DNA of 64,000 nt from an uncultured Bacteroidota bacterium (GTDB lineage: Bacteria; Bacteroidota; Bacteroidia; Chitinophagales; Chitinophagaceae): the NCBI GenBank assembly GCA_903958045.1, contig CAJBRT010000190.1, positions 29,718 through 93,717 on the forward strand, written 5' to 3'. The notes under the pieces were generated by a model. It made no database searches, was not told where the DNA came from, and worked only from the letters and a program-made list of their open reading frames with translations. Both the position numbers and the translations under genes were made by a program. Shown here piece after piece: positions 35,364 to 43,286 of the stretch. Positions within the stretch are counted from its first letter, which is position 1. Each line of letters begins with the position of its first letter.

Positions 35364-37271
35364 TTACCAACCAATACCATAATCTTCGCCATTGTTAGAA
35401 CTGCCGCCCCAAAGGCTTCCGTGCTTCCAATCAAAAAATATAGCATTGATAGGACCGCTACTTCTAGGATCAAAACTTAGTTTATAACCCATATTTTTTA
35501 ATTCGGTTCTAACTTTTTCTGGGGTATTTGTGTTGAGTGTAAGATTACCAGGTTTTGGTTTTCTGTCGGCCATTTTATTTCCACCTAATGATAACCAAAG
35601 TTGATTGGAATTAATATTTGCTGCTTCTGCCGCTTGTTGAACCGTCATTCCAAATTCAACCATGTTTAAAAAAAACTGTAATAAATTCTGATCTTGAGTA
35701 TCCCCACCCTGCACCGCAAAAGACAAAAACGGTTTACCATCTTTTAATGCAAGACTTGGTGTTAATGTAACGCGTGGTCTTTTTCCGGGCGCCACCACAT
35801 TAAATGGATTTTGGATAGAATCTAACACGAAGGATTGCATGCGTTGACTCATACCAACACCTGTATTACCCGCTATACATGCTGGAATCCATCCACCACT
35901 TGGTGTGATTGATACTACCCAACCACTCGTGTCAGCAGCTTCTACAGAGGTTGTTCCTCTCCACAAGCGGTCATTGTATAATTCATTATCGATAGCGTCG
36001 TTTTTGGCAATTTCCGAACCGTCATGACTTGGTAATACACCTGTTTTTCTAGTAGCGGTATCGGTATTATACAGGGCAGCTCTTTGTTGCAAAAGGCTCC
36101 TAAAAGGGTTTTCCTTTCCTTCAAAAGGGTAAGGATCTCCGGGGGCTGTATTTGGATTGTTAAAACCAACCGGAATTTCAGAAGCTCTTTTTTTAGCGTA
36201 ATCCTTACTCAGTAAGCCTTTGATAGGAATTTGAGTAGAAAATTTAGGGTCTCCATAATAAAAATCGCGGTCTGCGAAACTTAAATTCATAGCCTGATAC
36301 ACAGTGTGGATATAAGCAGGAGAATTATAACCCATTGATTTTAAGTCATAATTTTCTAAAATATTTAAAGCCTGTAACATACTAGGACCCTGAGTCCAAG
36401 ATTGTAGTTTGTATACATCAATCCCTTTATAATTGATTTGTAAAGGTGTTTCGATTATGGGTTTCCAGTTGGCTAAATCTTGAAGGGTAATAAGACCCCC
36501 TTGTTCCTGTGCACCTCTAACAAATTCCTGTGCTATATCACCTTTGTAAAAACGGTCATAAGCCGCATAAATCGCTTCCTTTCTAGATTTTCCTTTTTTA
36601 AGAGCTTGTTTTTCTGCGTCTACTAATTTTTGTAAAGTAGCTAGTAAATCTTTTTGAATAAATATTTCTCCCGCTTCTGGTGCTTCTCTTTTTTCTCCTA
36701 AGTGTGGTAATAAAATATTTTTACTGTAAGGCCAATCTTTAATTCTTTGTTTACCACGTTCGATACTATTTGCTGTTTGAGCATCAATTGGATAACCTGC
36801 TGCAAGTTGCATCGCAGGTTTTAAAACTTCTTCTAAACGCATCGTTCCATACTCTGCAAGCATCATACAAAGTCCACCGGGTGTGCCAGGTGTTGTTGCA
36901 GCTAATGGACCATATTCGGGCGGATAATTCATCCCTTTATTTTTAAAAAATTCTGGTGTTGCACCCGTAGGAGCCACGCCCATGGCGGATATGGCAATAA
37001 CTTGTTTTGTTTTTGGATTGTAAATTAACGCCTGTGTTTCACCACCCCAACTAAGCACATCCCACATTGTACAAGTGGCTGCTAACATAGCACAGGCTGC
37101 GTCTACCGCGTTTCCGCCTTTGTTAAAAATAATAGAACCAGCCGTTGCAGCAAGTGGTTTACCAGTAATGGCCATCCAATTTTTTCCATGCAATGGAGGT
37201 TTTTGAGTAGGTTGCGTTTTTGCTGTGTAAGACAGGATTAAAAAAGCAAATACAAATTTTAATATTTTCAT
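35364..37271 (-). CDS. Gamma-glutamyltransferase family protein
   Basis: NKGGNAVDAACAMLAATCTMWDVLSWGGETQALIY...GTTSVEAADTSGWVVSITPSGGW...GVGMSQRM...RPRVTLTPSLALKDGKPFLSFAVQGGDTQDQ. Confidence 0.9.
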   Translation of the reverse strand: MKILKFVFAFLILSYTAKTQPTQKPPLHGKNWMAITGKPLAATAGSIIFNKGGNAVDAACAMLAATCTMWDVLSWGGETQALIYNPKTKQVIAISAMGVAPTGATPEFFKNKGMNYPPEYGPLAATTPGTPGGLCMMLAEYGTMRLEEVLKPAMQLAAGYPIDAQTANSIERGKQRIKDWPYSKNILLPHLGEKREAPEAGEIFIQKDLLATLQKLVDAEKQALKKGKSRKEAIYAAYDRFYKGDIAQEFVRGAQEQGGLITLQDLANWKPIIETPLQINYKGIDVYKLQSWTQGPSMLQALNILENYDLKSMGYNSPAYIHTVYQAMNLSFADRDFYYGDPKFSTQIPIKGLLSKDYAKKRASEIPVGFNNPNTAPGDPYPFEGKENPFRSLLQQRAALYNTDTATRKTGVLPSHDGSEIAKNDAIDNELYNDRLWRGTTSVEAADTSGWVVSITPSGGWIPACIAGNTGVGMSQRMQSFVLDSIQNPFNVVAPGKRPRVTLTPSLALKDGKPFLSFAVQGGDTQDQNLLQFFLNMVEFGMTVQQAAEAANINSNQLWLSLGGNKMADRKPKPGNLTLNTNTPEKVRTELKNMGYKLSFDPRSSGPINAIFFDWKHGSLWGGSSNNGEDYGIGW

Positions 37272-37811
37272 AAGATTGAAATTACAAGAAGCAATTGATT
37301 TTTTGTTATCTAATTTTTTTATAAAAATTGTGTGTTAATAATTACCGTAATAATAGATTTAATACTTTTTTATTTAAATAAACTATTACTATTACGGGTG
37401 TTAATACCTTAATAACCTTCTTGTACACATACGTATATTTTTAGTGTTCACTTGTTATACAACTTTATACACAGGTTTATAAACAGTTTTAAACGATGTA
37501 ATATTGATTTATTAACTAATTTTTTAATTTTTTTTTCAGTTTATTAAATGATAATTTTTTTAGTATCCACTAGTTGTATACTGTTAATTAACTGGGTGTA
37601 AAATGAGTTTATTTTAGCCTAATACCCTCTAAAGCCACTAAACCTCCTTACTTGTTCTAGTTCTGTTCACATATTTTTTGTAAAAAAGGGCGGTTTTCCA
37701 CCTAAAATACTACTTATTAACCCCTAGTTTGTGGATAGAAATAAGGCCGCAATACCTTATTTTTGCCCTCCGGCAATTTGCCGCTCATTTTATTTATTAT
37801 AATTCGTTTTT
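37272..37811. other. Candidate chromosomal replication origin (oriC)
   Basis: 540-bp divergent intergenic region; 8 G/C in 60 at 37321-37380 and 5 in 60 at 37501-37560; DnaA-box-like TTGTACACA 37421-37429, TTATACACA 37465-37473, TGTGGATAG (reverse of CTATCCACA) 37730-37738; TAA/TAG runs at 37348-37356 (+) and 37383-37394 (-); gene strand switch; parS-like sites about 3.5 kb away. Confidence 0.6.
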
Positions 37812-39902
37812 ATGTCTGTTATTCAAAGTATTCGTGACAGAGGCACGTGGATCATTTTTACTATTATCGCTGTAGCCTTAATTGCTTTTATATTACAAGA
37901 TGGTGTTGGTAGAGGCGGAAGCGCTTTTTCTAATACAACAACCATTGGTGAAGTAAATGGTCAAAAATTAGAAAGAACAGTTTTTGAAGAAAAGTTAGCG
38001 ATGCAAGAAAAAATGTATGCTAGCCAAGGAGCGCAAAGAGATCAATTGATTGGTTCTATATGGAATCAAGAAGTGGACCGCTTACTCATTGAAGCAGAGT
38101 GTACTAAATTAGGTTTACAAGTAACGGGTAAAGAATTATCAGATATTTTATTCTCTGAAAATTCTCCATTAAAACAAGAGTTTACAGATCCTGCAACGGG
38201 CTTATTCAAAGTTGAAGATGCTAAAAAAGCGTTTGCTCAAATTAAGAAAAGTAAAAATGCGGATCAAATTAAAATGATTAACCAGGTTTATATTCAACCT
38301 ATTTTAGAACAAGCAATCCGTAACAAGTACAGTGTGTTACTTCAAAAATCTGCGTATGTTCCAAAATGGATGCTTGAAAAACAAGCTGCCGATAACAATC
38401 AAATCGCTAGTGCTTCTGTGGTTTTTGTGCCTTACGCAAGTATTGCTGATAGTACTATTAAGGTAACCGATAATGATATTGCTGCTTATGTTAAAGCACA
38501 TGCATCTGCCTATAAAAAAGACGAAGAAACAAGATCTATTGCTTATGTTTCATTTAGTGCTGTTCCAAGTAGTGCGGATAGCGCTTCTGTATTCAATGAA
38601 ATTACTGCCAATAAACAAGATTTTGCGGCTGCAACTGATAACGCTAGTTTCTTAAACAGAGTAGGAAGCGATTTACCTTATTATGATGGTTATTTTAGTA
38701 AGAGTAGAATGCAACAGGTGAATAAAGACACACTTGTTAAAATTCCAACCGGAACTGTTTACGGTCCTTATGTAGATGGCAATGCGTACGTCTTAGCTAA
38801 AATGGTGGGTATTAAAAACTGGCCTGATAGTGCTAAGGTTCGTCATATTTTAATTGCTACCGTAGATCCAAGATCTGGTCAACAAATTAGACCCGATAGC
38901 CTTGCAAAAAAATTAGCAGACTCTATTAAGTATGCTGTTGCTGGTGGCGCAGATTTTAATGCACTCGTTCAAAAATATTCTGATGACCAGGGAAGTAAAG
39001 CTAAGGGCGGTGTGTATGATTATTTTGCACAAGGTCAAATGGTAGGCGCGTTTAATGATTTTTCTTTTGATAAGCCAAAAGGTACCAAAGATGTGGTGAA
39101 GTCTGAATTTGGATATCATTACACCGAGGTATTAGATCAAAAGAATTTCGCCCCTGCTTATAAAATTGCCTATTTATCAAAAGCGATTGTTGCTAGTGGC
39201 GAAACCGTAACAGCTGCGTCTACGGCAGCAGCTTCTTTTGTTGCGAGCAGCAAGTCTCAAAAAGAGTTTGAACAAAATGCGCTTAAAAATAACGTACAAA
39301 TTTTAAACGGCGTAGATATTAAGAAAAACGATTTCACTATTACTGGTTTAGGGAAAAGCAGAGAAACCGTTCGCTGGGTATACGATAATAAAGTAGGTGC
39401 TATTTCTGAGCCAACCGAAATTGGTGACGCGTATATTGTTGCTATGATTACGAATATTGGGGAAAAAGGAACATTGAGTGTTGCTGAAGCAAAACCACTT
39501 GTAGAGGGACTTGTAAGAAATGAGTTAAAAGCAAAACAAATTATAGCGTCTAAATTTAAAGGATCTACTTTGGAAGATTTTGTAAAGAGCTCTGGTTTTC
39601 CTGTGCAACGCGTAGACAGTTTAAGTTTTGCATCTCCATTTGTACCAGGCGTTGGAGCTGAACCAAAAGTAGTGGGTGCTGCATTTAATAAAGCACTCAT
39701 TGGTAAAAGTACTGCTGCTATTGAAGGATCTGCTGGCGTGTTTGCCGTAAAGCCTGAAACCATTGGTGCTGCTGCGGTTATGCAAGATGCTGCTGCTTTA
39801 CAATCGGCGCTTTTACAAGCTGTTCAGTCTAATGTATACAGAGGTTTTGAAGCAATAAAAAAATCTGCAAAAATTAAAGACAACCGCTCTACATTCTATT
39901 AG
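37812..39902 (+). CDS. Periplasmic peptidylprolyl isomerase/chaperone, PpiD/SurA-like
   Basis: N-terminal TM segment then IGEVNGQKLERTVFEEKL; parvulin domain KVRHILIATVDPRSG...AVAGGADFNALVQKYSDDQGSKAKGGVYDYFAQGQMVGAFNDFSF. Confidence 0.92.
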   Translation: MSVIQSIRDRGTWIIFTIIAVALIAFILQDGVGRGGSAFSNTTTIGEVNGQKLERTVFEEKLAMQEKMYASQGAQRDQLIGSIWNQEVDRLLIEAECTKLGLQVTGKELSDILFSENSPLKQEFTDPATGLFKVEDAKKAFAQIKKSKNADQIKMINQVYIQPILEQAIRNKYSVLLQKSAYVPKWMLEKQAADNNQIASASVVFVPYASIADSTIKVTDNDIAAYVKAHASAYKKDEETRSIAYVSFSAVPSSADSASVFNEITANKQDFAAATDNASFLNRVGSDLPYYDGYFSKSRMQQVNKDTLVKIPTGTVYGPYVDGNAYVLAKMVGIKNWPDSAKVRHILIATVDPRSGQQIRPDSLAKKLADSIKYAVAGGADFNALVQKYSDDQGSKAKGGVYDYFAQGQMVGAFNDFSFDKPKGTKDVVKSEFGYHYTEVLDQKNFAPAYKIAYLSKAIVASGETVTAASTAAASFVASSKSQKEFEQNALKNNVQILNGVDIKKNDFTITGLGKSRETVRWVYDNKVGAISEPTEIGDAYIVAMITNIGEKGTLSVAEAKPLVEGLVRNELKAKQIIASKFKGSTLEDFVKSSGFPVQRVDSLSFASPFVPGVGAEPKVVGAAFNKALIGKSTAAIEGSAGVFAVKPETIGAAAVMQDAAALQSALLQAVQSNVYRGFEAIKKSAKIKDNRSTFY

Positions 39903-39921: not shown

Positions 39922-39955
39922 AAAAAGCCTCGCTAATTTTAGCGAGGCTTTTTTT
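39922..39955. terminator. Bidirectional Rho-independent terminator between convergent genes
   Basis: AAAAAGCCTCGCT-aatttt-AGCGAGGCTTTTTTT. Confidence 0.9.
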
Positions 39956-40526
39956 ATTTGTAATAGTTATGATCCTCAATTTCTTTTCTTACATTTTCAG
40001 GAACTAGATAACGAATCGTTTTTTGATCTCTAATATTTTCCCTAATTCCCGTTGCTGAAATATTTAAGAGCGGCGCGTTTAAGATGGTAACATGGGCACC
40101 AATTTTATCAACGTTTTCAAAGCCTGGGCGTATATAAACATAAAAAGCATATTTCTTTAAAAGCACTTCTGCGTTTTTCCAGCGCGCTATATTTTCAAAT
40201 CCATCGCTTCCCATGATGATTGAAAATTCGTGTTGCGGATATTTTTCTTCTAGATAGATAAGTGTATCAATGGTGTAAGAGGGGCGGGGTAATTTAAACT
40301 CAACATCAGAAGCTCTGAGTCTTGCTTCGTCATTTTCTATGGCTAGGTTTACAAGGTGTAACCGGTCATATTCGTTTAAAAGCGATCCGGCTGTTTTAAA
40401 TGGATTTTGTGGTGACACCACAAACCACACCTGCTGTACTTCTGTTCTGTTCACAACGTGACTTGCGATCATCAAATGACCGTGGTGTACCGGATTAAAA
40501 GAACCAAAATATAAACCTATTTTCAT
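39954..40526 (-). CDS. nadD: Nicotinate-nucleotide adenylyltransferase
   Basis: KIGLYFGSFNPVHHGHLMIASHV...FVVSPQNPFK...IMGSDGFENIARWKN...ISATGIRENI. Confidence 0.95.
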   Translation of the reverse strand: MKIGLYFGSFNPVHHGHLMIASHVVNRTEVQQVWFVVSPQNPFKTAGSLLNEYDRLHLVNLAIENDEARLRASDVEFKLPRPSYTIDTLIYLEEKYPQHEFSIIMGSDGFENIARWKNAEVLLKKYAFYVYIRPGFENVDKIGAHVTILNAPLLNISATGIRENIRDQKTIRYLVPENVRKEIEDHNYYK

Positions 40527-40560: not shown

Positions 40561-40788
40561 TTAGTTTTCTTGGGCTACAATAATACTGTCTGCTTCGCTT
40601 AAACGAAGGCTTAAATGATAGCCAGAAACTTCAATTGAAATAGGATCTCCAAGTGGGGCGACCTGAACCACCTTTACGGGCTCGCCGGGAACACATCCCA
40701 TTTCCAATAATTTTATGTAGAGCTCGTCTTTTTCAAAAGAGTGAATGATACCTACTTCTCCCGCTTCTAGTTCCGATAATTTTTTCAT
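40561..40788 (-). CDS. FeoA domain protein
   Basis: MKKLSELEAGEVGIIHSFEKDELYIKLLEMGCVPGEPVKVVQVAPLGDPISIEVSGYHLSLRLSEADSIIV; start trimmed from 40875. Confidence 0.88.
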   Translation of the reverse strand: MKKLSELEAGEVGIIHSFEKDELYIKLLEMGCVPGEPVKVVQVAPLGDPISIEVSGYHLSLRLSEADSIIVAQEN

Positions 40789-40877
40789 ACACGCTTTATA
40801 TTTATTGGCTCCCGCAAAGGTACCGCTCGCCGCAAAGAAAATGTTACGAAATTTGGAGTTAAACATAACTTGCACCC

Positions 40878-41306
40878 ATGCAAAAAGTAAACTTCCAAAA
40901 GGCCGACGCCGCCCTTACCCTGCCTGCTAAAACAGAGCTGAAAGCGTTTATTGAAAACCTATTTAAAAAGGAAAAGACCCAGCTTGCTGCTATTAATTAT
41001 ATTTTTTGCTCCGACAAATACCTGTTGTCTATTAACCAGCAGTTTTTGAACCACGATTATTACACTGATATTATCACTTTTGGACTACACGACAAGGGCG
41101 CCCCCGTTGTAGCAGAGGTTTATATTAGTGTAGACAGAGTGAAGGATAACGCAAAAACCCACGGAGTAACGTTTACCAATGAAATGCTCAGGGTTCTTTT
41201 TCATGGAGCCCTACATTTATGTGGTTACAAGGATAAGAGCAAGGCTGACATTTTGAAGATGCGCGCCAAAGAGGATGCTTACCTTGTTCGCTATACAAAA
41301 AAGTAG
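40878..41306 (+). CDS. ybeY: Endoribonuclease YbeY
   Basis: INQQFLNHDYYTDIITFGL...VLFHGALHLCGYKDKSKADILKMRAKEDAYL. Confidence 0.93.
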   Translation: MQKVNFQKADAALTLPAKTELKAFIENLFKKEKTQLAAINYIFCSDKYLLSINQQFLNHDYYTDIITFGLHDKGAPVVAEVYISVDRVKDNAKTHGVTFTNEMLRVLFHGALHLCGYKDKSKADILKMRAKEDAYLVRYTKK

Positions 41307-41321
41307 GTTCCACGTGGAACG
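41306..41321. promoter_or_regulatory. parS-like ParB-binding site, palindromic variant
   Basis: GGTTCCACGTGGAACG; core TTCCACGTGGAA is a perfect palindrome, 3 mismatches to TGTTCCACGTGAAACA. Confidence 0.65.
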
Positions 41322-41344
41322 GGAATCAAATGGTTTTACGGCGA

Positions 41345-41360
41345 TGTTCCACGTGAAACA
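41345..41360. promoter_or_regulatory. parS site (ParB/Spo0J-type)
   Basis: TGTTCCACGTGAAACA, 16/16 match to the B. subtilis-type parS consensus, intergenic, 39 bp from the second copy. Confidence 0.9.
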
Positions 41361-41404: not shown

Positions 41405-41412
41405 TATCTTTG
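41405..41412 (+). promoter_or_regulatory. -7 box of the mnmG promoter
   Basis: TATCTTTG with TTG 18 nt upstream (41384-41386); ATG only 5 nt downstream. Confidence 0.6.
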
Positions 41413-41417
41413 CACCC

Positions 41418-43286
41418 ATGTTTCCAGATTATGATGTTATTGTTGTAGGTGCCGGACACGCAGGTTGTGAAGCCGCAGCGGCCGCCGCCAACCTAGGTAG
41501 TAAAGTGCTCCTAGTTACTATGAATATGCAAACCATTGCTCAAATGAGTTGCAACCCTGCTATTGGTGGTATTGCCAAGGGACAGATTGTGCGCGAGATA
41601 GATGCAATGGGTGGATATACCGGACTGGTTACAGATGCAAGTACCATTCAATTTCGAATGTTGAATAGGAGCAAGGGTCCAGCTATGTGGAGCCCACGTG
41701 CGCAAAACGACCGTATGTTGTTTGCTGCCAAGTGGAGAGAGATGCTAGAAGAAACCCCCAATGTTGATTTTTACCAAGACACCGTGCAGGGGTTAATTAT
41801 AAAAGACAATAGAGCGGGTGGGGTCATTACCGGACTAGGCCACGAGATTAGATCTAAAACCGTGGTGGTTACTTCGGGAACCTTTTTAAATGGGATCATC
41901 CATATTGGTGAAAAACAATTTGGTGGTGGGCGTGTAGCGGAGAAAGCCGCAACCGGTATCACCGAGCAGTTAGTAGCACTGGGTATGGAAAGTGACCGTC
42001 TAAAAACAGGCACACCACCAAGGGTGGATGGACGTAGTTTAGACTATTCAAAAATGGAAGAACAGGCTGGGGACGAGGAAGTTGTGGGTTTCTCATACAA
42101 AGACACACCTCGCATCAAGGCCGCAGATCAGCGCAGTTGTCATATTACCTATACCAGCCAAAAGGTACACGACCTTTTAAGAAAGGGGTTTGACAGAAGC
42201 CCCATGTTTCAGGGAAGAATTGAAGGCGTAGGTCCTAGATATTGCCCAAGTATTGAAGATAAAATTAACCGCTTCGCGGATAGAGATAGACACCAGTTGT
42301 TTGTAGAACCAGAAGGCTGGAACACCGTAGAAATATACGTAAACGGGTTTTCTACCTCATTACCAGAAGAAGTTCAGTACGAAGCCCTTCGTAGTGTTCC
42401 TGGATTTGAGAATTGTCGCTTTTTTAGACCAGGTTACGCCATTGAATACGATTATTTTCAACCTACACAGTTAAAATATTCCTTAGAAACCAAGCTCATC
42501 GAAAACCTCTTTTTTGCCGGACAAATAAATGGCACAACGGGTTACGAAGAAGCGGCCTGCCAAGGTTTAATGGCCGGCATTAACGCGCACCAAAAGTCGC
42601 GCGAATTAGACCCTATTATTTTAAAAAGAAGCGAAGCTTATATCGGTGTACTCATTGATGATTTAGTAGGCAAAGGAACGGAAGAACCTTACCGTATGTT
42701 TACGTCTCGCGCAGAGTTTAGAACCCTCTTAAGACAAGACAATGCCGATATTCGTTTAACGCCATTAAGTTACCAATTGGGTCTTGCCAAACAAGATAGA
42801 ATGGACGCCGTGGAAGCGAAAAAAAATACGGTCACCGACATTAAAAATATACTCGCATCTTATAGCATTGAACCCGCAGAAATTGAAGGCTATTTCAATC
42901 AAATAAATTCGGCATCTATTACCGAAAAACAAAAAGCTTCAAAAATATTACTACGTCCAAACGTAGACCTGGTGGGCCTTTCAGCAGCTATGCCCCGTTT
43001 AAAAGAAGCCCTAGCAGGGTTTCATCCACAGGTGTTAGAGCAAGCAGAAATTCAAATAAAATACGAGCGCTACATCGAAAAAGAACAAGAAATTGCAACG
43101 CGCATGTTGCAAATGGAAAATCATATTATTCCAGAAAGTTTTAATTACGATGCTATGGCCGCACTCTCCAATGAGGCCCTGCAAAAATTCAAAAAAATTA
43201 GACCATCTACACTCGGCCAGGCCAGCAGAATTAGCGGCGTTAATCCAAGCGATATTCAGATACTCATGGTTTATATGGGCAGATAG
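41418..43286 (+). CDS. mnmG: tRNA uridine-5-carboxymethylaminomethyl synthesis enzyme MnmG/GidA
   Basis: YDVIVVGAGHAGCEAAAAAANLG...CNPAIGGIAKGQIVREIDAMGG...GTPPRVDGRSLDYSKMEEQ...INGTTGYEEAACQGLMAGINAH. Confidence 0.97.
   Translation: MFPDYDVIVVGAGHAGCEAAAAAANLGSKVLLVTMNMQTIAQMSCNPAIGGIAKGQIVREIDAMGGYTGLVTDASTIQFRMLNRSKGPAMWSPRAQNDRMLFAAKWREMLEETPNVDFYQDTVQGLIIKDNRAGGVITGLGHEIRSKTVVVTSGTFLNGIIHIGEKQFGGGRVAEKAATGITEQLVALGMESDRLKTGTPPRVDGRSLDYSKMEEQAGDEEVVGFSYKDTPRIKAADQRSCHITYTSQKVHDLLRKGFDRSPMFQGRIEGVGPRYCPSIEDKINRFADRDRHQLFVEPEGWNTVEIYVNGFSTSLPEEVQYEALRSVPGFENCRFFRPGYAIEYDYFQPTQLKYSLETKLIENLFFAGQINGTTGYEEAACQGLMAGINAHQKSRELDPIILKRSEAYIGVLIDDLVGKGTEEPYRMFTSRAEFRTLLRQDNADIRLTPLSYQLGLAKQDRMDAVEAKKNTVTDIKNILASYSIEPAEIEGYFNQINSASITEKQKASKILLRPNVDLVGLSAAMPRLKEALAGFHPQVLEQAEIQIKYERYIEKEQEIATRMLQMENHIIPESFNYDAMAALSNEALQKFKKIRPSTLGQASRISGVNPSDIQILMVYMGR

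Follow-up and report, generated by a model that had tools for sequence, protein, structure and literature searches.

A parS pair upstream of mnmG, close to a candidate replication origin, in an uncultured Chitinophagaceae bacterium

In the window, i.e., the whole stretch of 64,000 nucleotides analysed here, the genes ybeY (an rRNA maturation RNase) and mnmG (tRNA uridine-34 modification) flank a slot that holds two parS palindromes (Table 1). The profile matches bear out the two gene names given in the earlier note. The neighboring nadD and feoA-domain genes are members of a conserved nadD-feoA-ybeY-(parS)-mnmG order.

Table 1. Features of the parS slot and the candidate origin in the window, and positions of the HNH-endonuclease-like gene at the loci of relatives.
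Feature	Position	Strand	Remarks
gamma-glutamyltranspeptidase gene	35364..37271	-	left of candidate oriC; PF01019
candidate oriC	37272..37811		AT-rich gap, divergent genes, GC-skew minimum, two 8/9 DnaA-box matches
SurA-like PPIase gene	37812..39902	+	right of candidate oriC; PF13616/PF13623
nadD	39954..40526	-	
feoA-domain gene	40561..40875	-	PF04023
ybeY	40878..41306	+	TIGR00043, 8.6e-25
parS site 1	41306..41321	none	GGTTCCACGTGGAACG; perfect 14-bp core, outer bases off consensus
parS site 2	41345..41360	none	TGTTCCACGTGAAACA; exact match to TGTTNCACGTGNAACA
probable -7 element of mnmG	41405..41412	+	TATCTTTG; read against TAnnTTTG
mnmG	41418..43286	+	TIGR00136, 3e-253
HNH-endonuclease-like gene, between ybeY and mnmG	L158:854-1474, L142:144-779, L143:894-1475		relatives
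HNH-endonuclease-like gene, between ybeY and mnmG	L009:9358-9972, L011:9358-9972, L012:9348-9974		relatives; also L256-L259

Site 2 matches the consensus TGTTNCACGTGNAACA without a mismatch, at the coordinates and with the 16/16 score reported previously. Site 1 deviates from it at two positions, both of them outermost bases, and its palindromic 14-bp core, GTTCCACGTGGAAC, which starts at 41307, is perfect. The earlier note placed this second copy immediately after the ybeY stop codon; its palindromic character and its coordinates hold, but its first base is the final G of that codon (41304-41306), so that the site overlaps the stop by one base instead of following it. Similarly, the spacing of 39 bp given there is right as a start-to-start distance, while the gap proper between the two sites is 23 bp.

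According to an order-3 Markov model built from the contig, an exact parS is expected 0.004 times in the 2.43-Mb genome, and in the ybeY-mnmG gap of ca. 111 bp the expectation is 1.7e-7 for an exact match and 2.9e-4 for one with at most two mismatches. At up to three mismatches the window contains 8 matches, compared to 3.5 expected, and site 1 is not significant window-wide when taken alone; it becomes so because it lies beside the exact site 2. The unremarkable standing of a two-mismatch site on its own is what can be said for the view that the matches are chance palindromes, which is however refuted by the recurrence of parS at the same mnmG slot throughout the phylum (see below) and has, with the above expectation for an exact match in the gap, a vanishingly small probability. 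Genome-wide, the exact core GTTNCACGTGNAAC is present at sites 1 and 2 only, in an assembly of 220 contigs where an extra parS could lie in a gap. A third match, with two mismatches on contig C104, falls within a coding sequence that we identified by reading as rpoC and was rejected as most likely due to chance. The parS matches are thus not scattered over the genome, a distribution that had been named beforehand as an argument against the assignment, and the two palindromes are confirmed as its only good parS copies.

The genome encodes one ParB, on contig C72 (TIGR00180, 3.8e-50), and the sequence upstream of the gene reads as the end of parA. The best PDB relatives of the protein are ParB and Spo0J chains, it has the GERRFRA and GHARA motifs, and the alignment assigns to it R173, Y179, K184, and G201 (Caulobacter numbering). 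The RxxG class of ParB has been described as parS-specific (PMC7383237), and as judged from R173 and G201 the protein is a canonical ParB of this class; the lack of a ParB gene, which the earlier note considered incompatible with parS sites, is therefore not what is found. A full-length SMC is also encoded in the genome. These residues bear in addition on whether the pair could be Noc-binding (NBS) sites of nucleoid occlusion instead of parS, a reading that draws on the paralogy of Noc and ParB and the similarity of their sites. An NBS would have A for G at position 1 and C for A at position 6, and its Noc would carry Q173 and R201. At both discriminating positions, however, the present sites have the parS bases, G and A, and the only ParB/Noc homologue found is of the parS class at residues 173 and 201, making this assignment extremely unlikely.

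The cumulative GC-skew minimum of the whole 93.7-kb contig is located at position 37805 of the window, and the AT-skew minimum at 37931. The former lies inside a switch from the minus to the plus strand, the large genes running leftward on the left side and rightward on the right side, and at the edge of an intergenic gap of 540 bp that contains the AT-richest stretch nearby (81%). We consider this gap as a candidate oriC on the basis of the skew, the amplitude of which is modest in this contig; the DnaA-box matches in it are few and reach 8/9 at best. The parS pair is ca. 3.5 kb away from it. In two complete genomes of the same genus the local skew minimum precedes mnmG by 8.0 kb in G032 and by 1.9 kb in G039, and together with the minimum in the window this supports the origin-proximal location that the earlier note had deduced from the pair. 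Among sampled long contigs of the Flavobacteriia type, the sign of the skew switches close to mnmG in G014 and roughly 200-300 kb from it in G016. The complete genome LGM1 has a broad switch, which includes parS at 154 kb and places the origin only roughly. The use of dnaA as an origin marker was discarded: the single dnaA of the present genome is on a different contig from the parS pair, and in LGM1 it is at 742 kb, compared to 154 kb for parS.

The placement of parS at mnmG was examined at 79 usable mnmG loci of Bacteroidota, a site being counted at no more than one mismatch. A parS is found within 250 bp upstream of mnmG in 48 of the 79 loci, against 0.10 expected from the flank rate, just after the gene in 22, and inside it in 5. 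At least one site in any of these three places is present in 52 loci; the other 27, which include all Saprospiraceae-like ones, have no such site there. When ybeY is upstream of mnmG, the fraction is 41/49. Pairs across the loci are usually spaced by 36-49 bp start-to-start, like that of the window. In the family, clustered canonical parS sites occur at mnmG in 16/16 genomes, which were chosen via their parS matches, and within 1 kb upstream of the gene in 15 of them; in G199 the sites are spread over 2.2 kb upstream, with one more inside mnmG. In G041, the closest relative, whose MnmG is 99% identical, there are three sites compared to two in the window, indicating that the position is retained while the number of copies changes rapidly. 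Origin-linked placement of parS at mnmG is old in Bacteroidota. Our search of the literature on parS in this phylum, leaving aside the parS-distribution survey of Livny et al. 2007, turned up no mention of the mnmG slot. It can be mentioned here that several Chitinophagales-type genomes (L014, L015, L017, L021, and L031) have a parS in the mnmG coding sequence, in the same codons, at +380 from the start, and that Flavobacterium sp. MC2016-06 (L084) has five CACATG-centred parS-like sites with a spacing of ca. 117 bp, from -675 to -207 relative to mnmG, beside canonical-type ones.

The consensus of the Bacteroidota -7 promoter element is TAnnTTTG. The element TATCTTTG in front of mnmG is a probable promoter element by this comparison, and TATCTTTGC precedes mnmG in many relatives as well. 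The parS pair is ca. 45 bp upstream of this element, and we have therefore also considered that the palindromes are operators through which ParB or another regulator controls mnmG or read-through from ybeY, segregation being secondary. In Pseudomonas, a promoter can indeed be repressed by chromosomal ParB that is bound close to it (PMC7022226). However, the sites of relatives may also lie after mnmG, inside it at +380, or several hundred base pairs upstream, where up to nine form an array, and their number differs even between the window and the relative with 99%-identical MnmG. Loading near the origin fits such varied placement better than a fixed operator does, and we regard the operator function as improbable; an effect of the pair on mnmG transcription, as suggested in the earlier note, is possible, but with sites placed so variably it is unlikely to be their main role.

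The best reading of the pair, with the sequence, rarity, ParB class, skew-based origin proximity, and conservation observed here, is an ordinary chromosomal ParABS centromere of known kind. The palindromes very probably constitute the chromosomal parS locus, near oriC, where one ParB would load and spread and ParA would segregate the origin region. On the basis of known ParABS biology, the single ParB, encoded with ParA elsewhere, would bind both palindromes as a CTP-dependent clamp, the clamps would spread from the pair across the neighboring DNA, ParA would then separate the sister origin regions, and SMC would probably be recruited at the pair. We propose that the pair is beside mnmG because this slot is close to oriC.

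The locus resembles the parS of the type Ia ParABS systems of Bacillus subtilis and Caulobacter crescentus in the 16-bp palindrome, the few copies, the position near the origin, the one cognate ParB, and the presence of SMC in the genome. It differs from them in that parS is at ybeY-mnmG while parAB and dnaA are on contigs other than that of the pair, and in LGM1 parB, at 1.015 Mb, and dnaA are both far from parS. In the part considered here of a study on 12 gut strains (PMC10197239), parS clusters mark ori in gut bacteria including Bacteroidetes and ori is not always at dnaA, similarly to the present case, where the origin is marked by parS and not reliably by dnaA; a report of the mnmG slot was not found in that part. 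For Bacteroidota, in which dnaA is often a misleading guide, the region upstream of mnmG can accordingly serve as a practical marker of the replication origin and the centromere, and its variants (site number, drifted sites, split sites, and altered ParB contacts) provide natural comparisons for what a centromere needs.

The genome of the window has an intact parS pair and no HNH-like gene at the slot. In four close relatives with a normal ParB (G032, G033, G039, and G025), a gene for an HNH-motif protein of ca. 200 aa is situated between ybeY and mnmG, and no canonical parS was found in these genomes. Strong matches to this gene occur in 5/199 genomes of the order, all of them between ybeY and mnmG. 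With G172, G239, G187, G117, G244 (L009), and G245 (L012), ten carriers were counted; a genome-wide search found canonical parS in none of the ten, and it is present in 17/20 non-carriers of the family (raw counts, kinship ignored). The association of the gene with the absence of canonical parS is well supported. Three exceptions (G094, G182, and G208) have neither canonical parS nor a detected HNH gene, so the absence also arises without it. In the MnmG tree the carriers appear in several places, the non-carrier G035 being nested among them and G203 adjoining carriers of its own genus, which suggests repeated gain or loss, as far as a single-protein tree and counts that ignore kinship can tell. 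The profile scores of the protein are weak (Pfam HNH_4, E=0.16; PHROG HNH, E=0.007), and its HNH-like assignment comes mainly from the conserved FDHIIP...CWNFxNxR motif.

Just upstream of the HNH-like gene the carriers have clustered repeats of split half-parS, for example two copies of GGTTCCACGAATCCCAGTTTCACCCCGGAACA that are 46 bp apart, and the parS-contact residues of ParB are kept in the five carriers examined. A hidden replacement palindrome was sought in G032 and G039 and rejected, as no perfect 14-bp palindrome is repeated in 120 and 340 kb, respectively, near the origin. The half-sites GTTCCAC and GTTTCAC are also those of Pseudomonas aeruginosa ParB (PMC7022226), where they are dispersed and accompanied by full parS, whereas those of the carriers are clustered at the slot and a full canonical parS was not found. 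The association suggests an element that targets the centromere or has rebuilt it. One tentative scenario, to which we give a minor share of the probability, is that the mnmG centromere slot of Chitinophagaceae is the target of a selfish element, whose putative HNH-like enzyme, in this hypothesis a homing endonuclease, may cut canonical parS; carriers would then have to maintain a modified centromere that remains usable by ParB. Alternatively, the gene may merely use the rebuilt centromere as a promoter region. A causal association would mean that in the carriers the centromere is home to an endonuclease.

Within the same genus, the ParB of a sister clade is altered, SLAK replacing GHAR in the parS-contact helix (G201S, H202L, and R204K; L182-L194, i.e., G027, G028, G037, G042, G046, G038, G026, G034, G040, G020, G044, G036, and G023). 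At mnmG, some members of this clade have parS sites with CACATG and CATATG centres, and canonical ones occur too. In G038 (L149), the slot is occupied from -414 to -69 relative to mnmG by the gene of a phage-type endonuclease (PHROG 2340, E 7e-15) that is unrelated to the HNH-like one, and the sites are broken, two degenerate GGTTCCACATA repeats being located upstream of that gene. Finally, G054 and G060 (L162 and L161) show no TIGR00180 ParB match and have pairs or triplets of parS or parS-like sites at mnmG, those of G060 being three copies of TGTTCCACGGGGAACA with a spacing of 74 bp.
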